A DNA stretch of 64,000 nt from Aldrovandia affinis. Lineage: Eukaryota > Chordata > Actinopteri > Notacanthiformes > Halosauridae. Of this stretch, positions 6,640-64,000 are shown piece after piece (position 1 is the stretch's first letter; each line of letters begins with the position of its first letter). The notes beneath the pieces are model-generated. The model saw nothing but the letters and a program-made list of their open reading frames with translations, searched no databases and was not told where the DNA came from. Both the position numbers and the translations under genes were made by a program. Where the stretch lies: positions 931,011-995,010 of the forward strand of contig JAINUG010000212.1 in the NCBI GenBank assembly GCA_029706075.1, written 5' to 3'.

Positions 6640-7150
6640 GATAAGTGAGGGGTTTTAACAGTATTCTGAGTGCTGAACGTTACACATGGGCATTTGACTG
6701 TCATGGCGACTGGATTCAGAGAATAGACCGGAACAGAAGGATAAAGGCGATGAAGCCCATTAAGAGGCTATACTGTCCGAGCAGACACGCGCTTATTTGT
6801 TAAAGTTGCGAGAGTGGCACACAAGCCCGCTGGGTTATGTTAATGAAAAGGGCAAATTTGAATACAATCAATTATTTACAGATACAATCAATATTTAACA
6901 TCTTTATTTGGGGAACAACTTTATTTACATATTTATTATTTATTTTATTATGGATGCCATGCAACTTTCATGTATATTATATTACCTATAAACAAGTTAC
7001 AATAATTAATCATTCAATACCCAGATTTAACTTCCAATATGTAAACAATAAGGCATAAAATATGGTGCATTAGAATCTCACTGCATACTGTAATATACCT
7101 GTTCTACATCCTATCTATTCCATATCATAATGTACCCAAATAATGTGGCC
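6640..7150. repeat. AT-rich intergenic DNA with a dispersed repeat shared with 51826-51965
   Basis: The phrases 'ataagtgaggggttttaaca', 'gcgactggattcagagaata' and 'ttgttaaagttgcgagagtg' reappear near 51836-51958. No coding region is recognisable. The 73-codon AT-rich frame at 6837-7058 is not convincing. Confidence 0.5.
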
Positions 7151-7370
7151 ACCGGGCAGCCACTCCTCACGGTCTCGCGAAGAATGATCTTCCGCACTCA
7201 GTCAGGACCGCAGAATCACTTGCAATCTAGCCAATTGTCATCACCACTGCCTACTTGTTCAATACGTTTTGTATATGTATACTTGTTTCATATCATGTAT
7301 TAATGCACATCTTGTAAGTCTCTCTAGATAAGAGCCTCTGCTAAATGCTGTAAATGTAATGTAATGTACA
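7150..7370 (+). mobile_element. L2-type LINE 3' end
   Basis: This is the end of an L2 reverse-transcriptase region ('gaatgatcttccgcactcag') followed by the shared L2/SINE tail ('taagagcctctgctaaatgc' and 'gtaatgtaatgta'). The same fragment is attached to a longer L2 at 57382-57720. Confidence 0.7.
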
Positions 7371-7676
7371 TTGCAACTTTTAAATTGCGCTCAGCTTGCT
7401 TGCTGTTCACCTTCAAGCCGTTCATGGAGAGGGTGCAGGTATGAGTACACAGGTATGAACAGACACTCAGGCATACATGCTGTGCTCTTGCTTTGCCTGT
7501 GTTGTTGGTGCCAAACCCATGCCACGGCACGACCAATGACCACAACCACCCATGTACCCATGACAATACCCATGTCAAAAAAGGTCACGCTTGCTGTCAC
7601 ACACCACGCGACAATCCCTGGACGGGAACAGAGCAGTCTGGAGACGGAGTGGATTCTTTGGTCCACGGACCGGATC

Positions 7677-7682
7677 TTTATT
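7677..7682 (-). terminator. Probable polyadenylation signal of IFI44-like copy A
   Basis: AATAAA on the minus strand, 356 nt downstream of the stop codon at 8038-8040. It is conserved at the matching place in copy B (57975-57980). Confidence 0.5.
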
Positions 7683-8037
7683 CATCAAACAGATTAGTTT
7701 TCTGCACACCAACATGTGCAGAGACCAAGACCGGGAGTTTTATGTAAGCAGACAAAAACCAATCCGTCCGTAGCTTTGCTTTCTTTTCTTTCTTTCCTTT
7801 CCTTTCCTTTCCTCGTCGGTCTCTAAATGTAAATGTAAAGCAAACAAAACAAATGTGAGGCTAGTTTGTAATTGGTCATGCGGGCCCCGGACCTCACATT
7901 ATCAAAAAGAAGAAAATGAAAGCTAAGCTACCTGCCATGCTAATATCATATCATATGCTCATACAACAAAGCCTCGGAATGCACGTATGAATCTAGAAAT
8001 TGAAAAATGTGAACATTCACAGAGACTGTTGATTTCT

Positions 8038-11000
8038 TCAAGGCAGACTCTTCACGTAGTCGTTTGCATAGTTGACTATTTGCCTCAGTGCTTTCAGCAA
8101 CAGCTCATCCATGTCATCCTGCAGATCGATTACATTGTGGTAGTTCTTCACAGGCAGGATGCAGTTCAGAGGTATTCCCACTTTAGCGCTGAACTGATCC
8201 ATCTGTAGACCATCAGGGCAGAATTAAGTCAGAGTGAAAGAGAAAGCACTTCCCCCAAGTAACTTCATTTTATGATCCACTACGGCATGTTTGCATGGTT
8301 TATCACACCTCGATTTCATTGCTACAGTTCCTGTGGTTTAAGTTAATTAATTTAATTTCCACATGCCAGCAAAATATTTCATATTCTGTTATGTGGACAG
8401 ACTTATGAACCCACTGCTGTAGTGTAGTGGCAAAGAAGAAGTGGGTACAATAAAAAAATATTCTATTGTATGGCTTAAAAAATTACTTTAAAGTAATTAA
8501 ATTAAAGTTATTTTAAAGTTACTGATCGCTGCAAAGTAATTAAAGTTACGTTACTTGTAGGGTCAAGACTGAGTTTTAGTCTTAACATTTATCAACTGAA
8601 CTCTTATACATCACAAATCTATTCATATGCTGTACTTCTGCCTTCAAATAAATAAAGGAAGAAAGTTCAGCTCAGACCTTTATTAATGCAGAGATTGAGT
8701 TTGGTGAATCGCTGTCAGTCTGCAGACTAGTTTTCCAGAGTGCACATCCCTAGTTGACACCGGAGGGGTAGATGAACCCAGACAGAAGAGATTTTGATCA
8801 CACCACTACAAATATGTGCAGCTACATGCATGTTCCAAATTCACAATTCCAAGTTGCAAATCTGAAATTGTCGTTGAATGTTTGAATGTGCTCCCGAATC
8901 AGCCTCAGCCCTGCACACAACTACACAACCAAGGAAAACAAGCAAATAATTGAAAATGGGCTATGGCAGGCCCATTGCTATGATCTCACAATGAGAAATT
9001 CCAAACTACAAGTTTGCTAAAGTTTTATTAAAGTAATTCTCTCACATGCAGGCTAAAATTTATACACAACTTTTGCAACTTTTGTTCACATTCTGTGAAA
9101 TAATTCTAAGGAATAAATGGCTCAGTAGGTAGAGCATGCTTCTGTGTGGCTCAGTAGGTAGAGCGTGGTTCTGTGTGGCTCAGTAGGTAGAGCATGGTTC
9201 TGTGTGGCTCAGTAGGTAGAGCATGCTTCTGTGTGGCTCAGTAGGTAGAGCGTGGTTCTGTGTGGCTCAGTAGGTAGACATTTACATTTTACATTTTAAG
9301 CATTTAGCAGACGCTCTTATCCAGAGCGACTTACAAGATGTGCATTAATACAAGGTGAGAACAATCAAAGTTAGCGTACAAGATCAGTGCAGTAAAACGG
9401 CAAAAGACATCATTGCAGGCGTCTGCGTATCATACCTGTAACACTGGGAAAGAAAAGGTTAGTGGGTGTTTTTTTTTTTGTTGTTGTTTTTTTTAGAACA
9501 AGTAAACAGTGGTGATGACAGATTGACTAGATGGACAGTGTTCAGTGGTAGTGGAGTCTGAAGAGGTGGGTTTTGAGTCTCTTGCGGAAGATTGGAAGTG
9601 ATTCCGCAGTCCTGACCTGTGCGGGAGGTCGTTCCACCAACGAGGGACCAGGACAGAGAAGAGGCGAGACCGCGAGGAGCTGCTGCCAGGTGCCCGGAGG
9701 GATGGGGCAGTCAGTCTGCCAGCGGAGGCGGAGCGGAGGGGTCTGGACGGGGTGTAGGGCGTGATGAGTGACTGGAGGAGGGGGAGCAGTACCTCTGGCT
9801 GCTTGAAAAGCCAGCACCAGTGACTTGAATCTGATGCGTGCTGCGATGGGGAGCCAATGCAGAGAGGAGAGTAGAGGGTGACGTGGGTGAACTTCGGCTG
9901 GTTGAACACCAGGCGAGCAGCAGCGTTCTGGACTAGTTGCAGTGGCTTGATGGCACAGGCCGGAAGGCCTGCCAGCAAGGAATTGCAGTAGTCCAGACGT
10001 GGTTCTGTGTGGCTCAGTAGGTACAGTGTGGTTCTGTGTGGCTCAGTAGGTAGAGTGTGGTTCTGTGTGGCTCAGTAGGTAGAGCGTGGTTCTGTGTGGC
10101 TCAGTAGGTACAGTGTGGTTCTGTGTGGCTCAGTAGGTAGAGCATGGTTCTGTGTGGCTCAGTAGGTAGAGTGTGGTTCTGTGTGGCTCAGTAGGTAGAG
10201 TGTGGTTCTGTGTGGCTCAGTAGGTAGAGCGTGGTTCTGTGTGGCTCAGTAGGTACAGTGTGGTTCTGTGTGGCTCAGTAGGTAGAGTGTGGTTCTGTGT
10301 GGCTCAGTAGGTAGAGCGTGGTTCTGTGTGGCTCAGTAGGTACAGTGTGGTTCTGTGTGGCTCAGTAGGTAGAGTGTGGTTCTGTGTGTCTCAGTAGGTA
10401 GAGCGTGGGTCTGTGTGGCTCAGTAGGTAGAGCGTGGTTCTGTGTGTCTCAGTAGGTAGAGCGTGGTTCTGTGTGTCTCAGTAGGTAGAGCGTGGTTCTG
10501 TGTGGCTCAGTAGGTAGAGCACAGCGCTGACAACCCTTAGGTTGTGGGAAAGATGTATGCATTCACTACTGTAAGTCGCTTTGGACAAAAGCGTCTGCTA
10601 AATGGCATATATACTACTCAATTTGTCCAGAAATATTTAAAAGTTTCAAATATTTGGGTCAGTTTGGGTCCTGATCTATCCATGTGTGTAGATCTGATGA
10701 TCCAGGTGGGCCGGGCCTGGTTTGGTTTGGTACCACTGATTAAATGAAAAAAGATATATACATCCCCAGATATATTCTCAGTGAACAGGTACATTTTCCC
10801 ATCTTACCTTCTCCTTTAGAAATTTGCATTTGTATACCCTTTTCAGGTCTTCCTTCACCAACGGACAGAACTCATCCACCTTGGTGATGACAACCACGTG
10901 AGGAATCCCTGTATGAGAGATAGACATTATCTTTCCTTGTGTAGTAATATAATAATAATTATGATTGCACTGTTTTAAGTGACCATAAGAGTTGTCAAAG

Positions 11001-14000
11001 CTGAAACAGAAGCTAAATTCAGGTAAGGGCACCAAGCGCATTGGTTTCTATACTACCAAAATAAAGGAAACACCAACATAAAGTGCCTTTATAGAGCGTT
11101 GGGTCACCACGAGCCACCAGAACAGCTTCAGTGCACCTTGGCATAGAATCTACAAGTGTCTGGAACTCTACTGGAGGGATGCAACACCATTCTTTCATGA
11201 GAAATTCCATCATTTGGTGTTTTGTTGATAGTGGTGGAAAACACTGTCTCAGGCGCCGCTCCAGAATCTCCCATAAGTGTTCAATTGGGGTGGAGGTCTG
11301 GTGACTGAGACGGCCATGGCATATGGTTTACATCGTTTTCATGACTCACCAAACCATTCAGTGACCACTCATGCCCTGTAGATGGGGGCATTGTCATCCT
11401 GGAAGAGACCACTCCCATCAGGATAAAAATGCATCACCACAGGATGAAGGTGATCACTCAGAATGGCTTTGTATAAATTGCCATTTACCTTGCCCTCTAA
11501 GGGGTTGGGTGGACCTAAACCATGCCAGAGAAATGCACCCCTCACCATAACAGAGCCAACAGAACCCTTCATTTACTCAATGTTTCCTTTATTTGGGCAG
11601 TTACCTGTATGTTGTGAATTGTAGGGCTATATAGCAGCTGAAGAAGCTCCATGCTGGATTTAAATTAATTGTGTAATTGTTATTATTGGGCTAGAATCCT
11701 GGCTAGGAGGCACAGCCTGTTGTTCTGTCCTTCACTCGGCTTCCCTCCCCCCTCCCTGGGGCGGACAGCCTTCCATTCTCCCGGCCAGAGCCGACTCTGG
11801 CGGGACGGAGAACCGAACCCCGGTCTCCAATGTCGAATGTTGTAACCGCTGGACCACGCGGGAGGCCCCCTGTCCTTCACTCTTAGTACAGGCTGAAACC
11901 TGGGGGACCAGGAAGTCGTAACTTCAGACTTTGAGTATTTGAAGTGTGCACTTGTAACGGAGTTGGTCTGCCGCTGAGTTTCAAACCGAGGATCCCAACG
12001 CAACAAGAGACACGATTAGCCCGCTGAGCTAAAGACCCGAGTCCCCAGCCAAGGGAACTAATCGTACTCTTATCAACATCACTTTCTGCAGCGGACGCTC
12101 ACGTGCTTAACTCACATTTTCCGAGCTCCGCTACACACTCACATGTAAAGGTCCTGACATAATATAGTGTAAATGTCAGTATTGTATGCATTGTTTCAGG
12201 ATTTGTACAGTTGTGATGTGAAGCATCGAGCAACGTCAAATGAGGGATTCACTCATGCTTTGTGGAGTGTATATTAAAATCATAGAAATTATTCTGCATG
12301 CCCTACGGATCGGACTGTTAATATGACACACAACGTTCAAAGACCACATCCGGTTCGATGGCAAGTTTGACTTTAAGTATTACATAAGTTTTACATTAAT
12401 AATAACATAAATCCAATTTTAGAAGTATCATCATTTTAATGTATGCGATATCTACTTTTTGAATCTTTGCTATATGTTGGGAGAGTGAAGTGAAAGATTT
12501 TAAAAGTGAATATACCAACTCCTTGGCTATGGCTTAAATGCGTTACATCAATTCCTTCTCAAAACTTGCATGTCTTATTTCTTAATTTCTGCATTTGTAC
12601 AGCTGTATAGGTTGTCTTATATCTAATCTAGGTCTGTTCTCTGGAGACATGACAAGATCACTTTTGTGTATTTTATTAATGAACACGCAACAGTATTGGT
12701 GAGATTTGCTAAAACTGGTGTTGAGAGTTGTGTGTCAGTGAGTCCCTAAAGGCTTGGGAGGATCTGCCTACACCCACACAATACTTGCCCAAGTTGCTGG
12801 CTGCCAGGCGGATCTCACGCAGTTTTTTGACCATTTCATCTTTCATGATGGCGATTTTATTTGCGTCTACCACGGTGACTAGGCAGTGCACCTGGTCCTC
12901 TAGACTGGGACTGTCGTTGTACCAGTAAGAATCATCTTGTGACAAAGGGGCACTGGGATTGAACTAGCAGAGAGGGACAGGAAGGAAGTCACACATGAAG
13001 GAGAATGCAAATGTGAAATGTTGTTTTTGTTTGAGCAAAAACAAAGATGGGTTTCATTAGGTAGTACAACTAATTCATAAATGTCTGAGATAATTATGCA
13101 GCACTCCGTGGGGGCGATCGAGCGCCGTCCCAACTGTCATACCAAACCATTCTCAAATTTAAAAAGAAAATAATGTTTTAGGGAATGGGTTAGCATTAGT
13201 GATCTTGCTCCTAGCCCTGTCCCACGTTCTATATCAGAGAAAATGAGACAGAAATCAAGCAAGTCCATTGCGCTTTGCAGGCGGTGAAAACAAAAACAAA
13301 TAACATGTCTGTTTGTCATCATGTCTCCAAAAACAACACCATAAAAGCGGTAATGCTATATTGTTAACAGTATTTTCATGATGCCATAGCGTTGAATCGA
13401 GTAACGGAGAGCAGAGTGGAGTTTGTACCTTGTAGCCTTCTTTTACGTGACCTTTCATGGCATTTATGATGTCACTGGTACACACCCCTTGATCTCCTTC
13501 CAGGCCCATGACATCATTGAAAGCAAAGGAATAGGTGGAGCCTGGCATGTTTGGATTCTTTATGAGGTGGGTTTTGTACTGAAAGATAATATTGAACACA
13601 TAAATCATACTGCTGCAAACACTGCTGCAAACAACTGAACAAATACATAAATACATAAAAATATCAAACATTTTAAAATGGATTAATCTCAAAATGCACC
13701 ATCCCTGAAATATAGTGAATATAGAGAATGGAACTGATTGTGTACTCCTCCGATGGTTCACTCACCCAGATGGCTTTCCAGAAATACAGTAACTGTTTAT
13801 TCTCTATTTTCAACATAATAGATAATAATATAAAGTTCAATACATTCCCAGTAGGCTACAGTATAAGGTTTTATCAGCAGGCATTTAAACACATTTCCCA
13901 GTTTTCTCCATTTTCCAGAGCACGGAAAAGGAACCAGGATTTGCATAATACTGTAATTGTGCCAACTGTGACAAGCTTGAAGGGCTAAGGGCTAGAACTG

Positions 14001-17000
14001 GAAATAGAAATCCACTAAATTACTAAACTTATTTGTCCTGATCCCTCGGTGGTGGAATGATCTTCCGCACTCGGTCAGGTCCATGGAATCACTGGCCATC
14101 TTCCACAAGAGACTCAAAACCCACCTCTTCAGACTCCACCACCACTGAATTCTGTGCATTCTTACTCATTGTCATCACCTCTGCTTTCATGTTCAATGCT
14201 GCATTTTGTAATATGTATCTATCTTGATGACTGTCCAAAAAATGAAAATCTAACTTTTCCTTCCCAGTGTTACAGGTATGGTGTGCAGCTGCCAACAATT
14301 ATGTCTATTACAGTATTACTGCACTGATCTCTTGTGCGGACTATGATTGATCTTACCATGTATTAATGCACATCTTGTAACATATGCATAACATAACATA
14401 TGCCATTTAGCAGACACTTTTATCCAAAGTGACTTACAGTAGTGAACGCATACATTTTTTCAGTATATGTGGTCCCAGTGGGAATTTACATTTTTACATT
14501 TACATTTTAAGCATTTAGCAGACGCTCTTATCCAAAGCGACTTACAAGATGTGCATTAATACATGGTAGGAACAATCATAGTTCATGTATTAATGCATAG
14601 TTCATAGAATTGAACTCACAACCTAAGCATTGCCAACACCATGCTCTACCTACTGAGCCACACGGAACCATGCTCTACCTACTGAGCCACCAGGAACCAC
14701 TTGTAAATCTTGTAAGTCACTCTGAATAAGAGTGTCTGCCAAATGCTAAAATGTAATGTAATGTAAAATGTAAATTAAATAAAAAGCTTGGTGTGGAACT
14801 GGAGAATCTTTAATCACTGAAAGCTAGCCAATGCAAAGTGGTATCACACAACTAAGTGTTGTGTACAGATTTAGACCTGTAATGCTTCTGATATTATGCA
14901 AAAGCTGATATTGTGTCTGAATGTGTGTGTGTGTCTGTCTGAAAACCCTGAACTGTTTACTTATTAAAATTGGATGTAACAAGACAATCTGTTTCAATGC
15001 AGGACATCCAAGCCAACCGGACATTAAAGCAACCAGATTTGTTTAAAAAAATGGATAGAATTATGGTAAATCTGAATATATTTTGTTTAAATTTGCAATA
15101 GTTTTGTTTCTGTTTGGCCTAATAATAGTCATGTCTAGGAAGACTGAGCTGTACCACGTGCTACCAATCTCACACTTAAAAGATCAGTTCACTAAATTTT
15201 GTAAACCCTCACATTTCTTCCAGGTATGGGCTGAAGTTACAATGGTACGGAGCCCCTAACGTAAGGTTCCACCCCTAAACTCAACTGGTAATCCGTTCTT
15301 TCGATTTTCTAATGAATTCCTAAAAATGATCTGGTATCAATAAATTCTCATTTTAAGGGCTCTGTTGTTCACAGTGCTTAGAATAGAAAGATAAAAACAC
15401 TAGCGTGTGTCGTAGACTCCTGTTTGAATTGTGATTTTGTTCTGATTAAAGTGTTTACATGAGTATTTGTGTGTATTAGGTTACAGTACACTGTATGTAT
15501 TGATTTGTAATATATGTTTTATTAGCTTGTATGGCACACAATAACAGCAATGGGCTACAGGTAGGATGCCCTGGCGATGTCTTCTTGCCCAGTTTGTCCT
15601 TAACACAGAGCTGGGTGTGTGGCACAAGGGCTTTATTTGATGTGGGAACAGACTATTATAGCCACAGAACAAAATAACCTACAAAAACATCTAGGTACAG
15701 GATTATTAATTTAAGGGGACAGATTACTAAACTGAGAGAATAACAATGATCTATAAAAGCAACTTTGTTTCGTGTTGCATGTTTCATTGTCTTCATTGTG
15801 AAGGCTTTGTTCATACTTACTTTCTTGGTGAAACTTCCACCTCCAATGCCATCTGCAAGGGCGGAAGTAGTTGAACGTCCCTGAAAGATGTTATTGATGG
15901 AGTTGATGAAGCTGGACTTCCCAGCACCGACTGGTCCATTCAGAAGGATTCTGAGTTTTCCCACGTTTGGGTTTCCAGATGTAAATGTCCTCAGTTCCTC
16001 CAGAGTTTCCTCTCTATCACTGTGTCAGTAACACAATGAAGTCTTTAAGCACAGAAGAGTACTATGGGACACTCACTAACAAGGCTTGCTGAGCGGTATT
16101 TACATAGTGGGGATATAATAACACTCCTCTGGATGAAAAGCAGAAACTTTGTGTTCTCTGCAGAGAGCGTGAGTGTTTACGAGACACACACAGGGACTCC
16201 ATTCTGGCAATGTGAACACGAAGGTCGATCACAATGCTAGAGCACAGTAGCGCTGGTTAAAATGCCATTGAGCTATTTTCACAGTGGGGAAATCACTAGC
16301 ATGGTAGCTCTATTGTAAAAGTGTTTTTTGTTTTTTGTAGATTATACTACCTGTAGGTCTGGTGAGGTGTGACTGCATTATGGCCAATCAGATCATCAGT
16401 CTTTCCCCTTTTTTGTATGTGCTTCATGGTAATGTGTTATTATTGTATGTTTACCCAACATAACACATGCCATTTAGCAGCTTTTTATCCAAAACGACTT
16501 ACAGTACTGAATGCATACATTTTTCAGTATATGTGGTCCCAGTGGGAATCAAACCCACAACCTAAGCGTTGTCAGCACCGTGCTCTACCTACTGAGACAC
16601 ACAGAACCCTACCTACTGAGACACACAGAACCACGCTCTACCTACTGAGCACACACAGAACCACACTCTACCTACTGAGACACAGAACCATGCTCTACCT
16701 ACTGAGACACACAGAACCACACTCTACCTACTGAGACACACAGAACCACGCTCTACCTACTGAGCCACACAGAACCACACTCTACCTACTGAGCCACACA
16801 GAACCACACTCTACCTACTGAGACACACAGAACCACACTCTACCTACTGAGACACACAGAACCACGCTCTACCTACCACACAGAACCAGACTCACACAGA
16901 ACCACGCTCTACCTACTGAGCCACACAGAACCACACTCTACCTACTGAGACACACAGAACCACGCTCTACCTACTGAGACACACAGAACCACGCTCTACC

Positions 17001-18009
17001 GACTGAGCCACACAGAACCCACCTCCAAGACATTTCCCTCCATGGTGTCCAGAATTCTGTAAAATACCAAAATAATTTTTATTTTATTTATTTTTTATTC
17101 CAGAAAATTAGAATCCTAAACAACCCACCCCACTGACCCACCAATTAGTGAGTACATTTTGTCTGGCGTAAAGCCACATACAGTACAGTACGGCTTTGGA
17201 AAGAAGTGTGTGTGGAATATACTGTCAATAAATAGTCAGTGTCTTTTTTGGCTTTGCCAACTTAAATAAAAAACATTGATTTAGTTTGGATTTTCAACTG
17301 TTAAGACCACAAAGTCAATAATGTGTATAAACTGGAACATTTTGATCATGTCAAGTGAAGTTTACAAGGTTAGAGGTTAGCTCTGGTAGCCTGCATGCTG
17401 TACACGGATTCTGAAATGGGTACTCAATGGGGTGGGGGGTGTGCACCATGGTGCGACCCACACTCTAGCCCAGCAGGGGGCGATATAGGCTACAATAAGA
17501 ATATTTAATCTATCTGATAAACCTACTGAAGAATGCAGGACACTGTCCCATAGATATAAGCACGTAGATGCCCCATTCACCCTGCATGTGTATTGAGAGA
17601 TGTAGACTTCCGCTGATAAAATCTACTGTAACTCACTTAATTCTCAACCAATCGTGACATTTGGCTTGTTATAAACGTTAGAAATTTCTGCATAACATGC
17701 AGGTTACTTGAAGAGCAGAACCTGGCTGTGAACACGATATGCAAAAATTCCACAAAGTTGTGCATCATTTAGGTGTAGAAATAGGACGAACCCAGAAGCA
17801 AGGCTCGTAGGATAGCCACTTACTTGTGAAGTTATTTCACTATTTCACTGTCACTTAAAGCTGACGTTGAATAAATAACTGACAGATATCGCCATGATGA
17901 TAAGAAAACATAGGCTAACGCTGGCTAGTTATCTGCCAGGACCTGTCCTGCACTGGAGGCAAGAAGCGTGCGTGCGTGCGTGAAGCTCACCTGAACACGA
18001 ACTTCCCAT
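8038..18009 (-). CDS. ifi44-like: Interferon-induced protein 44-like GTPase, complete gene, copy A
   Basis: A seven-exon minus-strand gene was assembled from splice sites and phase. Coding exons are 17991-18009, 17023-17056, 15821-16019, 13429-13578, 12789-12963, 10808-10908 and 8038-8202, totalling 843 nt or 280 residues. All phases join cleanly. Residues 8-17 hold the family's TPWRE segment. The P-loop GPVGAGKSS is at 46-54, a DxxG motif (DVMG) at 106-109, and TKVD, the guanine-specificity motif, at 201-204. The C-terminus contains ILPVKNYH, typical of IFI44 proteins. The start MGSSCS resembles an N-myristoylation signal. IFI44/IFI44L proteins are interferon-induced, cytoplasmic, GTPase-like modulators of antiviral responses; biochemical activity in fish is inferred only. 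Intron 5 has a GC donor. At 280 aa it is shorter than the roughly 450-aa human members. No clear ISRE was found upstream. Confidence 0.88.
9121..9280 (+). repeat. 29-bp minisatellite made from a SINE tRNA-like head, block 1 (copy A)
   Basis: About six units, each containing the Pol III A-box-like core TGGCTCAGTAGGTAGAGC. The array is cut by the L2 insertion at 9281-9995 and continues at 9996-10525. It lies in the last intron of the IFI44-like gene. Confidence 0.9.
9281..9995 (-). mobile_element. 5'-truncated L2 LINE inserted in the minisatellite
   Basis: On the minus strand this reads as the C-terminal part of an L2 reverse transcriptase, with motifs such as [32 protein letters not shown] and VPRWWNDLP. 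The L2 tail follows at 9281-9345. The reading frame is interrupted by shifts. Copy B lacks it, so the insertion followed the segmental duplication. No clear target duplication is visible. Confidence 0.85.
9996..10525 (+). repeat. 29-bp SINE-head minisatellite, block 2 (copy A)
   Basis: About 18 units with exact 29-bp spacing (for example the unit starts at 10031 and 10060). Variants alternate between GTAGAGC and GTACAGT endings. The last unit runs into a SINE body (10526-10606) whose B-box segment is deleted, leaving 'ggttgtgggaaagatgtatg'. Confidence 0.9.
11044..11605 (-). pseudogene. Tc1-like transposon remnant with transposase fragment (copy A)
   Basis: The minus-strand frame 11369-11572 contains [10 protein letters not shown], which resembles the second-aspartate region of Tc1 transposases (family motif HDNAP). 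The right end 'gggcagttacctgta' is present, but the left terminal repeat is lost at the junction near 11043. The intact-ended counterpart is at 60951-61516. It lies in an intron of the IFI44-like gene. Confidence 0.7.
11700..12110 (-). mobile_element. Two adjacent tRNA-derived SINE heads
   Basis: The first, 11700-11877, read on the minus strand starts 'ggcctcccgcgtggtccagc' with a B-box-like GGGTTCGGTTCTC. The second, about 11945-12075, has 'tttagctcagcgggctaatc' as an A-box and 'ctcggtttgaaactc' as a degenerate B-box. Both are conserved in copy B (61600-62040). Confidence 0.6.
14035..14420 (+). mobile_element. L2 LINE 3' end
   Basis: It begins 'ccctcggtggtggaatgatc', matching the L2 'WWNDLP' coding end. 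It continues through 'aagagactcaaaacccacct', and ends with 'gtattaatgcacatcttgta'. It is about 85-90% like the copy at 46860-47280. The duplicated segment can still be followed into this element in copy B. Confidence 0.7.
14385..14720 (-). mobile_element. SINE with a nested L2 tail
   Basis: A minus-strand SINE ('catttagcagacacttttat' tail, 'ctctacctactgagccacac' head) is interrupted by an L2-type tail at about 14488-14580 ('catttagcagacgctcttat' with 'acaagatgtgcattaataca'). Two head units remain at the right, a possible start of the array expansion seen elsewhere. Confidence 0.6.
16455..17022 (-). repeat. SINE with its tRNA-like head expanded into an array beside a splice donor
   Basis: The SINE tail and body are at 16455-16590 ('ccagtgggaatcaaaccca' is its B-box region in reverse). 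About 15 head units of roughly 29 bp follow up to 17020. The array runs directly into the donor of IFI44-like exon 2: the intron begins GTGGGTTCTGTGTGGCTCAG, which is itself a unit start. Confidence 0.85.
17455..17715. repeat. Dispersed repeat shared with 49140-49380
   Basis: The phrases 'gcatgtgtattgagaga', 'gtagactt', 'ataaaatc', 'actgtaactc' and 'gacatttggct' recur in order near 49245-49345. No ORF or clear terminal repeat is visible, so the family is unknown to me. Confidence 0.6.
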
Positions 18010-55329: not shown

Positions 55330-55850
55330 AATGCAGTGGCAAATCTAGCGGTGTAACCATTGTAAAACTTCGCTAGGTATTCGCTGTGATAGCCGCCTCA
55401 ATAACTAGGCCTTTTTCCCGTTCAAATCGGTCGAGAAATTTGTGTAAATGAACTCGGAAAACATGCTAGGATGCTACCCATTGAAAACCATGGTCGCGCT
55501 AGCATTGCGGTGACATTTTGTAACGTAGCGATAAATCTAGCGGTTAAACCATTGTAAAACTTCGCTAGGTATTCGCTGTGATAGCCGCCTCAATAACTAG
55601 GCCTTTTTCCCCGTTCAAATCGGTCCAGAAATTTGTGTAAATGAACTCTGAAACGTTGCTAGGATGCTACCCATTAAAAACAATGGTCGCGCTAGCATTG
55701 CGGTGACATTTTTTTACGTAGCGATAAATCTAGCGGATAAACCAGTGTAAAACTTCGCTAGGTATTCGCTGTGATCCCCGCCTCAATAACTAGGCCCTTT
55801 TCCCCGTTCAAATCGGTCCAGAAAGTTGTGTAAAACATGTCGGAACGAAG
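55330..55850. repeat. ~192-bp tandem repeat, 2.7 copies
   Basis: 'aaatctagcgg' starts at 55341, 55533 and 55726. Units share 'aaacttcgctaggtattcgc' and 'ctcaataactaggccttttt' and differ by a few percent. Confidence 0.9.
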
Positions 55851-55949
55851 CAGTTTGACTTTTTCTGTAAAGTTAAGCCGTTGCTTAGCAACCGGTTCTT
55901 CTGCAATGCATATCAGGCCGATAGAAACGGCTCTGTTTTAAAAAGTAAA

Positions 55950-56460
55950 GCATATATATACATTCTGTAAAAAAGGCGTCTTAATAGAGGTAGTCCTCTC
56001 CCGTTTAGAGTTTGAATGGTGTCGATATGATGTAAAATGAAGGAGTTGTAAGGACATCGAAATTGCCTGGTAAACTCTTAAAAAGAAAAGTTTTTGCGAT
56101 TAGACGCTTTCAAAACATAAACGGCTCCTGTTTCAAAATTACAGCATGTATAAACATTCTGTAAAAAAGGCGTGTTAATAGAGGTAGTCCTCTCCCGTTT
56201 AGAGTTTGAATGGTGTCGATATGATGTAAAATGAAGGAGTTGTAAGGACATCGAAATTGCCTGGTAAACTCTTAAAAAGAAATTTTTTTTGCGATTAGAC
56301 GCTTTCAAAACATAAACGGCTCCTGTTTCAAAACTACAGCAGTTATAAACATTCTGTAAAAAAGGCGTCTTAATAGAGGTAGTCCTCTCCCGTTTAAAGT
56401 TTGAATGGTGTCGATATGATGTAAAATGAAGGAGCTGTGATCAAATATAAATCGGCCAGT
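55950..56460. repeat. ~194-bp tandem repeat, 2.6 copies
   Basis: 'cattctgtaaaaaaggcgt' starts at 55961, 56155 and 56350. Units share 'agaggtagtcctctcccgtt' and 'atggtgtcgatatgatgtaa'. It is unrelated by eye to the neighbouring 192-bp unit. Confidence 0.9.
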
Positions 56461-57389: not shown

Positions 57390-57720
57390 GAACTGCTCCC
57401 CCTTACCTCTAGACACTCATCACACCCTACACCCCAGCCAGACCCCTCCACTCCGCCTCCTCTGGCAAATTGACTGTCCCATCCCTCCGGGCACCCGGCA
57501 GCCACTCCTCGCGGTCTCGCGAAGAATGATCTTCCGCACTCAGTCAGGACCGCAGAATCACTTGCAATCTAGCCAATTGTCATCACCACTGCCTACTTGT
57601 TCAATACGTTTTGTATATGTATACTTGTTTACTTGTTTCATATCATGTATTAATGCACATCTTGTAAGTCTCTCTAGATAAGAGCCTCTGCTAAATGCTG
57701 TAAATGTAATGTAATGTACA
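57390..57720 (+). pseudogene. L2 LINE 3' part (continuation after the hAT insertion)
   Basis: It resumes the L2 frame with 'ggaactgctcccccttacct' (the family's SLITPYTP region follows), then 'gaatgatcttccgcactcag', and the L2 tail ending in GTAATGTAATG repeats. Its last 230 bp equal the left border of the segmental duplication. Confidence 0.85.
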
Positions 57721-57974
57721 TTGCAACTTTTAAATTGCGCTCAGCTTGCTTGCTGTTCACCTTCAAGCCGTTCATGGAGAGGGTGCAGGTATGAGTACAC
57801 AGGTATGAACAGACACTCAGGCATACATGCTGTGCTCTTGCTTTGCCTGTGTTGTTGGTGCCAATACCCATGTCAAAAAAGGTCAAGCTTGCTGTCACAC
57901 ACCACGCGACAATCCCTGGACGGGAACAGAGCAGTCTGGAGACGGAGTGGATTCTTTGGTCCACGGACCGGATC

Positions 57975-57980
57975 TTTATT
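57975..57980 (-). terminator. Probable polyadenylation signal of IFI44-like copy B
   Basis: Minus-strand AATAAA, 376 nt downstream of the stop at 58357-58359, in the same context as in copy A. Confidence 0.5.
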
Positions 57981-58079
57981 CATCAAACAGATCAGTTTTC
58001 TGCACACCAACATGTGCAGAGACCAAGACCGGGAGTTTTATGTAAGCAGACAAAAACCAATCCGTCCGTAGCTTTGCTT

Positions 58080-58115
58080 TCTTTTCTTTCTTTCCTTTCC
58101 TTTCCTTTCCTTTCA
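58080..58115. repeat. TTTCC microsatellite
   Basis: 'tttcctttcctttcctttcc' run; shorter at the paralogous place, 7780-7813. Confidence 0.8.
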
Positions 58116-58356
58116 AACAAAACAAATGTGAGGCTAGTTTCTAAATGTAAATGTAAAGAAAAAAAAACAAATGTGAGGCTAGTTTGTAATTGGTCATGCG
58201 GGCCCCGGACCTCACATTATCAAAAAGAAGAAAATGAAAGCTAAGCTACCTGCCATGCTAATATAATATCATATGCCAATACAACAAAGCCTCAGAATGC
58301 ACGTATGAATCTAGAAATGGAAAAAATGTGAACATTCACAGAGACTGTTGATTTCT

Positions 58357-61300
58357 TCAAGGCAGACTCATCACGTAGTCGTCTGCAAAGTCGACTATTT
58401 GCCTCAGTGCTTTCAGCAACAGCTCATCCATGTCATTCTGCAGATCGATTTCATCGTGGTAGTTCTTCACAGGCAGGATGAAGCTCACAGGTATTCCCAC
58501 TTTAGCGCTGAACTGCTCCATCTGTAGACCATCAGGGCAGAATTAAGTCAGAGTGAAAGAGAAAGCACTTCCCCCCCAAGTAACTTCATTTTATGATCCA
58601 CTATGGCATGTTTGCATGGTTTATCACACCTCGATTTCATTGCTACAATTCCTGTGGTTTAAGTTAATTCATTTAATTTCCACATGCCAGCAAGATATTT
58701 CATATTCTGTTATGTGGACAGACTTATGAACCCACTGCTGTAGTGTAGTGGCAAAGAAGAAGTGGGTACAATAAAAAAAGATTCTATTGTATGGCTTAAA
58801 AAATACTTTAAAGTAATTAAATTAAAGTTATTTTAAAGTTACTGATCGCTGCGAAGTAATTAAAGTTACTTTACTTGTAGGGTCAAGAGGTCACACTGAG
58901 TTTTAGTCTTAACATTTATCAACTGAACTCTTATACATCACAAATCTATTCATATGCTGTACTTCTGCCTTCAAATAAATAAAGGAAGAAAGTTCAGCTC
59001 AGACCCCTTTATTAATGCAGAGATTGAGTTTGGTGAATCGCTGTCAGTCTGCAGACTAGTTTTCCAGAGTGCACATCCCTAGTTGACACCGGAGGGGTAG
59101 ATGAACCCAGACAGAAGAGATTTTGGTCACACCACTACAAATATGTGCAGCTACATGCATGTTCCAAATTCACAATTCCAAGTTGCAAATCTGAAATTGT
59201 CGTTGAATGTTTAAATGTGCTCCCGAATCAGCCTCAGCCCTGCACACAACTACACAACCAAGGAAAACAAGCAAATAATTGAAAATGGGCTATGGCAGGC
59301 CCATTGCTATGATCTCACAATGAGAAATTCCAAACTACAAGTTTGCTAAAGTTTTACAAAAGTAATTCTCTCACATGCAGCCTAAAATTTGTACACAACT
59401 TTTGCCCCTTTTTGCAACTTTTGTTCACATTCTGTGAAATAATTCTAAGGAATAAAAGCATGGTTCTGTGTGGCTCAGTAGGTAGAGCATGCTTCTGTGT
59501 GGCTCAGTAGGTAGAGCATGGTTCTGTGTGGCTCAGTAGGTAGAGCATGCTTCTGTGTGGCTCAGTAGGTAGAACATGGTTCTGTGTGGCTCAGTAGGTA
59601 GAGCGTGGTTCTGTGTGGCTCAGTAGGTAGAGCATGGTTCTGTGTGGCTCAGTAGGTAGAGCGTGGTTCTGTGTGGCTCAGTAGGTAGAGTGTGGTTCTG
59701 TGTGGCTCAGTAGGTAGAGCATGGTTCTGTGTGGCTGGCTCAGTAGGTAGAGCATGGTTCTGTGTGGCTCAGTAGGTAGAGCGTGGTTCTGTGTGGCTCA
59801 GTAGGTAGAGCGTGGTTCTGTGTGGCTCAGTAGGTACAGTGTGGTTCTGTGTGGCTCAGTAGGTAGAGCGTGGCTCTGTGTGGCTCAGTAGGTAGAGTGT
59901 GGTTCTGTGTGGCTCAGTAGGTAGAGCGTGGTTCTGTGTGGCTCAGTAGGTAGAGCGTGGTTCTGTGTGGCTCAGTAGGTAGAGTGTGGTTCTGTGTGGC
60001 TCAGTAGGTAGAGTGTGGTTCTGTGTGGCTCAGTAGGTAGAGTGTGGTTCTGTGTGGCTCAGTAGGTAGAGCGTGGTTCTGTGTGTCTCAGTAGGTAGAG
60101 CGTGGTTCTGTGTGGCTCAGTAGGTAGAGCACAGCGCTGACAACCCTTAGGTTGTGGGAAAGATGTATGCATTCACTACTGTAAGTCGCTTTGGACAAAA
60201 GCGTCTGCTAAATGGCATATATACTACTCAATTTGTCCAGAAATATTTAAAAGTTTCAAATATTTGGGTCAGTTTGGGTCCTGATCTATCCATGTGTGTA
60301 GATCTGATGATCCAGGTGGGCCGGGCCTGGTTTGGTTTGGTACCACTGATTAAATGAAAAAAGATATATACATCCCCAGATATATTCTCAGTGAACAGGT
60401 ACATTTTCCCATCTTACCTTCTCCTTTAGAAATTTGCATTTGTATACCCTTTTCACGTCTTCCTTCACCAACGGACAGAGCATATCCACCTTGGTGACTA
60501 CAACCACCTGAGGAATCCCTGTATGAGAGATAGACATTATCTTTCCTTGTGTAGTAATTATAATAATTATGATTGCACTGTTTTAAGTGACCATAAGAGT
60601 TGTCAAAGCTGAAACAGAAGCTAAATTCAGGTAAGGGCACCAAGCACAGGTTCCTGTAACTTGGCGCTGTATTTCTACACAAAGAGAATGTGGTCTTTCA
60701 AGCTTTGTGTCTCTGATCAGTACGTGAGATCATGGATCAGCAGAAAGGATGTGTGATGGTGGTAATATTTAGGGTTAGGGTTAGATCATGAGATCATGAG
60801 ATCATGAATCAGCTCAGAGGATGGTAATATTTAGAAATGTGTTTTGCCATTAGTTTACATGATCCTGTTGAAGTTTTTGTGTTATGAGGAAAGGGAAAGC
60901 ATCTGCATATGTATATTCATGCATGACCATTGCTTTGCATCAGTACAATGTACAGGTAACTACCAAAATAAAGGAAACACCAACATAAAGTGCCTTTATA
61001 GAGCGTTGGGTCACCACGAGCCACCAGAACAGCTTCAGTGCACCTTGGCATAGATTCTGGAAGTGTCTGGAACTCTACTGGAGGGATGCAACACCATTCT
61101 TTCATGAGAAATTCCATCATTTGGTGTTTTGTTGATAGTGGTGGAAAACACTGTCTCAGGCACCTCTCCAGAATCTCCCATAAGTGTTCAATTGGGGTGG
61201 AGGTCTGGTGACTGAGACGGCCATGGCATATGGTTTACATCGTTTTCATGACTCACCAAACCATTCAGTGACCACTCATGCCCTGTGGATGGGGGCATTG

Positions 61301-63499
61301 TCATCCTGGAAGAGACCACTCCCATCAGGATAAAAATGCATCACCACAGGATGAAGGTGATCACTCAGAATGGCTTTGTATGTATTGGTGTTTACCTTGC
61401 CCTCTAAGGGGTTGGGTGGACCTAAACCATGCCAGAGAAATGCACCCCTCACCATAACAGAGCCAACAGAACCCTTCATTTACTCAATGTTTCCTTTATT
61501 TGGGCAGTTACCTGTATGTTGTGAATTGTAGGGCTATATAGCAGCTTAAGAAGCTCCATGCTGGATTTAAATTAATTGTGTAATTGTTATTATTGGGCTA
61601 GAATCCTGGCTAGGAGGCACAGCCTGTTGTTCTGTCCTTCACTCAGCTTCCCTCCCCCCTCCCTGGGGCGGACAGCCAATTGCCGCCCCCTGGTGGCACT
61701 CCCAGCCAGAGCCGACTCTGGCGGGACGGAGAACCGAACCCCGGTCTCCAACGTCGAATGTTGTAACCGCTGGACCACGCGGGAGGCCCCCTGTCCTTCA
61801 CTCTTAGTACAGGCTGAAACCCGGGGGACCAGGAAGTCGTAACTTCAGACTTTGAGTATTTGAAGTGTGCACTTGTAACGGAGTTGGTCTGCCGCTGAGT
61901 TTCGAACCGAGGATCCCAACGCAACAAGAGACACGATTAGCCCGCTGAGCTAAAGACCTGAGTCCCAAGCCAAGGGAACTAATTGTACTCTTATAGACGC
62001 CACTTTCTGCAGCGGACGCTCACGCGCTTAACTCACATCTTCCGAGCTCCGCTACACACTCACATGTAAAGGTCCTGACATAATATAGTGTAAATGTCAG
62101 TATTGTATGCATTGTTTCAGGATTTGTACGGTTGTGATGTGAAGCATCGAGCAACGTCAAATGAGGGATTCACTCATGCTTTGTGGAGCGTATATTAAAA
62201 TCATAGAAATTATTCTGCATGCCCTACGGATCGGACTGTTAATATGACACACAACGTTCAAAGACCACATTCGGTTCGATGGCAAGTTTGACTTTAAGTA
62301 TTACATAAGTTTTACATTAATAATAACATAAATCCAATTTTAGAAGTATCATCATTTTAATGTATGAGATATCTACTTTTTGAATCTTTGCTATATGTTG
62401 GGAGAGTGAAGTGAAAGATTTTAAAAGTGAATATACCAACTCCTCGGCTATGGGTTAAATGCGTTACATCAATTCCTTCTCAAAACTTGCATGTCTTATT
62501 TCTTAATTTCTGCATTTGTACAGCTGTATAGGTTGTCTTATATCTAATCTAGGTCTGTTCTCTGGAGACATGACAAGATCACTTTTGTGTATTTTATTAA
62601 CAAACACACAACAGTATTGGTGAGATTTGCTAAAACTGGTGTTGAGAGTTGTGTGTCAGTGAGTCCCTAAAGGCTTGGGAGGATCTGCCTACACCCACAC
62701 AATACTTGCCCAAGTCGCTGGCTGCCAGGCGGATCTCACGCAGTTTTTTGACCGTTTCATCTTTCATGATGGCGATTTTATTTGCGTCTACCACGGTGAC
62801 TAGGCAGTGCACCTGGTCCTCTAGACTGGGACTTTCATTATACCAGTAAGAATCATCTTGTGACAAAGCGGAAACGGGATTGAACTAGCAGAGAGGGACA
62901 GGAAGGAAGTCACACATGAAGGAGAATGCAAATGTGAAATGTTGTTTTTGTTTGAGCAAAAACTAAGATGGGTTTCATTAGGTAGTACAACTAATTCACA
63001 AATGTCTGAGATAATTATGCAGCACTCCGTGGGGGCGATCGAGCGCCGTCCCAACTGTCATACCAAACCATTCTCAAATTTAAAAAGAAAATAATGTTTT
63101 AGGGAATGGGTTAGCATTAGTGATCTTGCTCCTAGCCCTGTCCCACGTTCTATATCAGAGAAAATGAGACAGAAATCAAGCAAGTCCATTGCGCTTTGCA
63201 GGCGGTGAAAACGAAAACAAATAACATGTCTGTTTGTCATCATGTCTCCAAAAACAACACCATAAAAGCGGTAATGCTATATTGTTAACAGTATTTTCAT
63301 GATGCCATAGCGTTGAATCGAGTAACGGAGAGCAGAGTGGAGTTTGTACCTTGTAGCCTTCTTTTACGTGACCTTTCATGGCATTTATGATGTCACTGGT
63401 ACACACCCCTTGATCTCCTTCCAGGCCCATGACATCATTGAAAGCAAAGGAATAGGTGGAGCCTGGCATGTTTGGATTCTTTATGAGGTGGGTTTTGTA
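58357..63499 (-). CDS. ifi44-like: Interferon-induced protein 44-like GTPase, copy B, 5' end outside the window
   Basis: Coding exons on the minus strand: 63350-63499, 62710-62884, 60418-60518 and 58357-58521, equal in length and phase to exons 4-7 of copy A. The DVMG motif and TKVD are intact, and the frame is open to the stop. Exons 1-3 with the P-loop should lie beyond 64000, since in copy A they start 2.2 kb upstream of exon 4. Relative to copy A, exon 4 is identical. Exon 5 differs at 9 bases (7 replacement), exon 6 at 7 (6 replacement) and exon 7 at 11 (all replacement). Its C-terminus, [12 protein letters not shown], is closer to the family pattern than copy A's. The GC donor after exon 5 is conserved. 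Confidence 0.85.
59459..60150 (+). repeat. 29-bp SINE-head minisatellite, copy B
   Basis: About 23 uninterrupted units with the core TGGCTCAGTAGGTAGAGC, then the same B-box-deleted SINE body as in copy A (60131-60210). Unit number is close to copy A (about 24), but the variant order differs. Confidence 0.9.
60951..61516 (-). pseudogene. Tc1-like transposon with both ends, decayed transposase
   Basis: The ends TACAGGTAACTACCAAAATA and its inverse 'gggcagttacctgta' are both present, next to TA dinucleotides as expected for Tc1 insertion. The minus-strand frame 61276-61479 holds [11 protein letters not shown], the second acidic motif of the DDE core. Length is about 566 bp, so most of the transposase is deleted. 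Confidence 0.8.
61600..62040 (-). mobile_element. Two adjacent tRNA-derived SINE heads, copy B
   Basis: Counterparts of 11700-12110, slightly longer in the first head ('caattgccgccccctggtgg' retained). Confidence 0.6.
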
Positions 63500-63924
63500 C
63501 TGAAAGATAATATTGAACACATAAATCATACTGCTGCAAACAACTGAACAAATACATAAATACATACAAATATCAAACATTTTAAAATGGATTAATCTCA
63601 AAATGCACCATCCCTGAAATATAGTGAATATAGAGAATGGAACTGATTGTGTACTCCTCTGATGGTTCACTCACCCAGATGGCTTTCCAGAAATACAGCA
63701 ACTGTTTATTCTCTATTTTCAACATAATAAATAATAATATAAAGTTCAATACATTCCCAGTAGGCTACAGTATAGGGTTTTATCAGCAGGCATTTAAACA
63801 CATTTCCCAGTTTTCTCCATTTACCAGGATTTGCATAATACTGTAATTGTGCCAACTGTGACAAGCTTGAAGGGCTAAGGGCTAGAACTGGAAATAGAAA
63901 TCCACTAAATTACTAAACTTATTT

Positions 63925-64000
63925 GTCCTGACCCCTCGGTGGTGGAACGATCTTCCGGCCAGGTCAGCGGAATCACTGGCCATCTTCCGCAAGAGACTCA
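63925..64000 (+). mobile_element. L2 LINE 3' fragment at the window edge
   Basis: 'cccctcggtggtggaacgat', then 'cttccgcaagagactca', as at 14035 in copy A, with a small internal deletion. Confidence 0.7.

Follow-up and report, generated by a model that had tools for sequence, protein, structure and literature searches.

Diversifying selection as the probable source of replacement-biased divergence in a cluster of IFI44-like GTPase genes of the fish Aldrovandia affinis

How can two gene copies whose introns have remained nearly alike have come to differ several times more in their exons, and there almost only by amino acid replacements? The question is posed by a stretch of 64,000 nucleotides from the fish Aldrovandia affinis (“the window”; contig JAINUG010000212.1, hereafter C1247, at C1247:931011-995010), in which two copies, A and B, of a gene for an IFI44-like P-loop GTPase are found. 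To judge from the comparison of the two with each other and with their relatives in the genome (1.22 Gb in 2576 contigs were searched), A and B are very probably members of a family of IFI44-like P-loop GTPases that is young, exists in many copies and has no detected TLDc domain, and diversifying selection acting throughout this paralogue cluster is, with the same high confidence, the best explanation of its divergence.

Copy A spans 8038–16024, the coordinates heading the preliminary description of the window covering copy B only; the exons, numbered according to a scheme of our own, are the following.

Copy A exon 3, 15821..16024, minus strand: P-loop GPVGAGKS and presumed switch I stretch (tblastn, sequence and splice context; exact 5′ border not settled).
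Copy A exon 4, 13429..13578, minus strand: motif DVMGLE (G3), same as copy B over 150 bases (tblastn, alignment).
Copy A exon 5, 12789..12963, minus strand: GC-type splice donor, G/gcaagt (alignment).
Copy A exon 6, 10808..10908, minus strand: motif TKVD (G4) (alignment).
Copy A exon 7, 8038..8202, minus strand: includes the stop codon (alignment).
Copy B exon 3, C1247:996604-996807, minus strand: outside the window (tblastn).
Copy B exon 4, 63350..63499 (C1247:994360-994509), minus strand: no difference from A (tblastn).
Copy B exon 5, 62710..62884, minus strand: 9 differences from A.
Copy B exon 6, 60418..60518, minus strand: 7 differences from A.
Copy B exon 7, 58357..58521, minus strand: includes the stop codon; differs from A at 11 bases, each of them a replacement.

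Exons 4–7 of both copies are open with intact splice sites; the splice-site bases of exons 5–7 are identical in A and B, and exon 7 ends with TGA in both. The exon 5 donor has GC and not GT (TTGG/gcaagt, at 12788 in A and 62709 in B), a feature common to all 12 exon 5 sequences examined (A–J, L and N5).

The preliminary description had counted 27 base differences between the two copies in exons 5–7, 24 replacement and 3 silent, with 11 replacements and no silent change in exon 7, and these figures proved exact under Nei–Gojobori counting; 13 of the differences are transitions and 14 transversions. Its estimate of about 2% for the introns also stands, 91 of 4863 positions (1.87%) being different in the aligned non-exon DNA outside a 29-bp minisatellite, so that the exons, with 27/441 (6.1%), have indeed diverged faster. 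When the sites are separated by type, the rates are 6.9% at replacement sites (24/346), 3.3% at silent sites (3/92) and 1.9% in introns; the first exceeds the intron rate (one-sided Fisher p = 3.2e-7) and the second does not (p = 0.25). The excess persists against a null of exon-sized blocks drawn from the patchy non-exon alignment (p between 0.0002 and 0.0003), and the share of replacements (24/27) exceeds the neutral share of 0.69 derived from the intron mutation spectrum (p = 0.015). Exon 4, omitted in the preliminary description, has no difference between A and B (0/150), and exons 4–7 taken together are still above the introns (27/591, p = 1.1e-4). The nearest intron substitutions are found 80 and 102 bp from the borders of exon 5, 41 and 361 bp from those of exon 6 and 81 and 37 bp from those of exon 7. 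Over exons 5–7 the net charge is −2 in A and −6 in B.

Could A and B be merely two haplotypes of one locus, placed end to end in the assembly? The ~2% intron divergence is within the range of alleles and both copies are on one contig. However, exons 4–7 are contained in duplicated blocks having the following limits.

Block with copy A exons 4–7, 7147..14116, minus strand: the alignment stops beyond 7147, while upstream of 14116 the matching sequence lies in DNA that is no longer part of the window.
Block with copy B exons 4–7, 57489..64000, minus strand: continues past the window end.

The sharp ends of the alignment at 7147 and 57489, the different insertions and the ~43 kb of other DNA between the copies led to the rejection of such an artefact, which is very improbable; furthermore, the replacement excess would need explaining even if A and B were alleles.

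The nature of the protein is indicated by three motifs of P-loop GTPases, G1 (GPVGAGKS), G3 (DVMGLE) and G4 (TKVD), all present in copy A; in copy B, DVMGLE and TKVD are inside the window and the P-loop is just beyond its end. The protein of B exons 5–7 has at least 41 matching places in the genome. Among the weaker matches, those at C180:2348273-2348437 (minus strand, E = 2.4e-8) and at C1767:2798747-2798926 and 2800908-2801048 (plus strand, E about 1e-3) lie ~5 kb downstream of same-strand TLD matches (C180:2353153-2353584 and C1767:2793580-2793999), and from their position each TLD match and its GTPase match would constitute one gene. Through these two loci A and B would be homologous to genes having TLDc as well as GTPase parts, and IFI44 itself has a putative TLDc (PMC5614904). 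None of the listed TLD matches of the genome (at least 18) is on C1247 or on the contigs C2058, C1980, C790, C1390, C2499 and C2333, and it is because of the lack of a TLD match on their contig that A and B are named IFI44-like and not IFI44. Pfam profiles identified general P-loop families only, none specific to IFI44; a PDB search returned two matches, both with unrelated proteins (E 0.39 and 0.53), and no relative; no relatives were confirmed in viral or prokaryote contigs, and no N-terminal exons of copy A were recognised upstream of 16024. An interferon-induced or antiviral role of the protein is suggested by the homology and by the published induction of salmon IFI44.L. A scan of the window for interferon-type motifs (GAAANNGAAA) gave 14 scattered matches, which were not used as evidence.

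The other copies were read from 20 stretches of the genome; the set rests on the search with B exons 5–7, so that copies having only the P-loop or exon 4 may be missing from it. Their distribution is the following.

C1247: copies A and B.
C2058: copies C and D.
C1980: copies E and F and part of G.
C790: copy H.
C1390: copy I.
C2499: copy J and exon 7 of K.
C2333: older copies L, M and N.

The nine copies used in the pair comparisons lie on six contigs. G and K (one exon each), E2 (a lone exon 7) and L, M and N (older or fragmentary) were omitted from the codon models and site counts, C was entered without exon 7 and the stop codon of E was treated as missing. Two identical exon 7 copies of E, carrying the same in-frame stop, are located at C1980:269482 and 272766, ~3.3 kb apart.

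Across these copies the replacement excess holds against both silent sites and introns, which supports the diversifying selection put forward in the preliminary description. The proportion of replacement differences (pN) exceeds that of silent differences (pS) over exons 4–7 in 35 of the 36 pairs of the nine copies, pairs that are not independent, with values such as 45 replacement versus 2 silent for A–J, and the introns next to these exons show 1.5–4.8% divergence in the same pairs, similar to the silent sites. The mean pairwise difference is 5–11% in exons 4, 5, 6 and 7 versus mostly 0–4% in the nearest flank windows; the exceptions are the windows 50–100 bp upstream of exon 4 (16%) and of exons 5 and 6 (6%), that 100–200 bp upstream of exon 6 (8%, 16/36 pairs) and the DNA after exon 7 (4–15%, partly from few pairs). 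Flank windows more than 30% different or heavily gapped were dropped, something that could lower the intron rates, but the four-fold sites agree with the introns.

A purpose-written codon model, applied to the codon alignment of the family on both the exon tree and the intron tree, gave under M0 an omega of 2.98 and 3.04, respectively (p = 3.0e-6 and 1.9e-6 against omega = 1), so that omega is about 3 over the whole domain and the replacement rate is above the silent rate. M2a was preferred over M1a with p = 4e-12 on both trees for nine copies and p = 4e-13 for seven, the site models placing 36–44% of the codons under selection with omega 7.3–8.0. Since recombination can mislead codon models, variable sites were also counted, a procedure that uses no tree; the codon model itself was run on the two trees, which agree. 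In the seven copies open through exons 4–7, 71/366 zero-fold, 3/65 four-fold and 139/2149 intron sites are variable (zero-fold versus intron p = 1.2e-13; zero-fold versus four-fold p = 0.0013; four-fold versus intron p = 0.80); the corresponding counts are 71/363, 3/64 and 129/2037 with eight copies and 79/362, 4/62 and 90/1342 with nine. The contrast between zero-fold and four-fold sites persists when CpG contexts are excluded (52/328 versus 1/54), and CpG hypermutation was rejected on this ground. Comparison of four copies with the older copy L yielded ordinary values, pS (0.27–0.28) being larger than pN (0.20–0.23), which indicates that the counting method does not by itself create a replacement excess.

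Several observations weigh against diversifying selection. Between A and B replacements are more frequent than silent changes, as the preliminary description had it, but this comparison alone is not significant (one-sided p = 0.14). Among four disjoint close pairs, the ratio of pN to intron divergence is 3.25 for A–B, 1.79 for H–I (p = 0.035), 1.66 for D–J (p = 0.077) and 0.88 for E–F; only A–B is strong by itself, while E–F shows no excess and is also the sole exception to pN > pS (0.81). When the four pairs are pooled, the excess of replacements over introns (p = 8.5e-6) falls to p = 0.038 without A–B, and that over silent sites has p = 0.25. The weak or absent excess in the close pairs other than A–B places the family-wide excess largely on deeper branches and on A–B. 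In addition, the four-fold sites are few (65), mosaicism can make M2a/M8, though not the site counts, come out too high, and what was read from C790, C1390 and C2499, all short contigs, may be alleles instead of extra loci. Finally, exon 7 of E contains an in-frame stop, that of C is frame-broken and an A-run near the start of exon 3 of B is one base shorter, each of these being either damage or a read error.

These last three defects are what would be produced if one of the copies, or both, had come under relaxed constraint or were decaying as pseudogenes; decay, however, raises replacement sites to the neutral rate and not to three times that rate, and in A and B exons 4–7 have kept open frames and intact splice sites. 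Drift of pseudogenes is refuted by a replacement rate that exceeds both the intron and the four-fold rates, and decay is accordingly to be considered extremely improbable.

Within the protein, variation surrounds a nucleotide-binding core that is nearly fixed: among six copies only F has a change in the P-loop stretch, a single one, and neither DVMG (G3) nor TKVD (G4) is changed in the core copies. In exon 3, again in six copies, 6 of 42 residues vary up to the sequence NIFQ and 10 of 20 after it, with 20/118 variable zero-fold and 0/29 variable four-fold sites; the stretch of this exon that follows the P-loop we take by position, according to the usual GTPase layout, to be switch I. The variable residues are 17/50 in exon 4 (mostly within the first ten), 23/59 in exon 5, 13/34 in exon 6 and 30/54 in exon 7.

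Conversion with other family members, the second cause envisaged in the preliminary description, has left visible traces and yet does not qualify as the sole cause, since exons are no more mosaic than introns. For 17 of the 27 A–B differences both states occur in other core copies, 8 being private to B and 2 to A; the shared differences become 19 when exon 7 of C is counted as well, which is frame-broken and whose first part has the states of B at two otherwise B-private sites. The differences in the exons occur in clusters (9 pairs of neighbours are within 3 bp of each other versus a null mean of 4.2, p = 0.008), and the intron tree joins A and B as sisters (support 1.0), whereas the exon tree, which is weakly supported, does not. 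All this would suit a conversion confined to exons, in which short tracts from members with no longer alignable introns replaced parts of exons 5–7 of A or B, without selection. Such tracts would nevertheless move silent and replacement differences alike, whereas throughout the family nearly all the differences between donors and recipients are replacements, and four-gamete incompatible site pairs are no commoner in exons (228/1128, 20%) than in introns (440/1770, 25%). From these two points it would appear that conversion shuffles variation made by selection. Exon-confined conversion as the only cause is quite unlikely and largely refuted by the four-fold versus zero-fold counts, and conversion alone, in whatever form, was rejected because it cannot favour replacement over silent changes. 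The conflicts being as common in introns as in exons, exchange takes place along the whole gene, with selection deciding what stays different, and conversion may well explain the patchy differences between A and B in particular.

The two copies share identical runs of 398, 366, 353, 246 and 213 bases; in 5000 shuffles, runs of such length were hardly ever reached. Homogenising tracts would leave such runs, and these, together with the weaker excess of the close pairs other than A–B compared to distant pairs, favour the possibility that introns and silent sites only look slow, due to conversion or constraint, the replacements being old variation kept by selection. This is unlikely, since silent and replacement sites are interleaved and tract-wise homogenisation would erase both; site-by-site retention would still require diversifying selection and would thus alter the age of the variation, not its cause. 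The block around exon 4 (13640–12964 in A) is almost identical to B, with the runs of 353 and 213 bases, as would be left by a recent conversion tract.

Since the family multiplied, diversifying selection would thus have fixed replacements in a large part of the GTPase domain, at ~3 times the neutral rate, the nucleotide-binding motifs being held nearly constant. Variation is found in the residues that follow the P-loop, which by position are switch I, at the beginning of exon 4, in some portions of exon 5 and in the C-terminal exon, while conversion or unequal exchange would pass the replacements among copies and keep introns and silent sites alike. The pressure would presumably come from pathogen proteins which the GTPase must bind or escape. 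A more doubtful, albeit possible, extension is that the cluster constitutes a germline repertoire, with a fixed GTPase core and shuffled hypervariable positions, switch I included, that are traded by conversion; if so, it would represent a store of variants for recognising pathogen partners that are numerous or change quickly, and a case of evolution like that of the major histocompatibility complex inside an interferon-type GTPase.

As to the surrounding DNA, the 29-bp minisatellite (TGGCTCAGTAGGTAGAGC...) is in intron 6 of both copies, with 18 and 23 units, and occurs inverted at 16.6 kb; it has a unit that looks to us like the head of a tRNA-type short interspersed element and is adjoined by tails of UnaL2 long interspersed elements, these features together occupying 9999–10519, 59457–60130, 16582–17025 and 9118–9278. 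Copy A has an insert in intron 6 (9278–9998) that B lacks, and B has one in intron 5 (about 60.7–60.95 kb) that A lacks. The DNA between the copies (19–54 kb) is rich in transposon remnants, with reverse transcriptase frames at 21.0, 36.1 and 52.6 kb and hAT-like frames at 19.4 and 29.9 kb; two adjoining tandem arrays of unlike sequence (55341–55834 and 55925–56438) have periods of 193 and 194 bp and 2.6 units each.

The family described here represents a real and strong new instance of a process whose kind is already known. Accelerated evolution of snake venom gene families was reportedly described by Nakashima in 1993 and 1995, and in venom phospholipases A2 introns are more conserved than exons. 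Another fish immune paralogue family, whose proteins are unrelated to those considered here, has likewise diversified by duplication and selection, the selected part being the B30.2 domain. Unlike the venom toxins, which are secreted, the protein of A and B is a GTPase of intracellular type with a nearly fixed nucleotide-binding core; the likeness consists in duplicated genes with KA/KS >1 between copies, as documented for the accelerated evolution of venom families (PMC6062510).

Closer by homology are primate IFI44 and IFI44L, members of the same family that are listed as positively selected (PMC8074226), the likeness being selection for replacements in a gene that is, or here would be, interferon-stimulated; the primate genes are orthologues compared across species, whereas here a paralogue cluster of one genome has a whole-domain omega of ~3, its introns resembling each other more closely than its exons do. 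Expanded families with many regionally duplicated copies are also known in teleosts, IFI44/IFI44.L numbering 20 genes in zebrafish and 12 in Atlantic salmon (PMC7573153) and IFI44 being expanded in clupeids (PMC13403563). IFI44.L is strongly induced by interferon gamma and is in salmon among the most strongly induced interferon genes, the function of IFI44/IFI44L being described as unresolved (PMC7573153). These teleost studies report copy number and induction, and the selection scan of one of them was limited to single-copy orthogroups (PMC13403563) and would pass over paralogues such as these. A literature search, by which subscription papers were mostly not covered and which is thus weak evidence, found no account of selection or conversion acting across the paralogues of fish IFI44-like genes.

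Selection scans of single-copy orthologues only would therefore have a blind spot for paralogue clusters of this kind. With replacement sites evolving about three times as fast as introns and silent sites, the contact surface of the conflict would be none other than the GTPase domain, the part adjoining the nucleotide included, and the variable positions provide a list of sites for testing.

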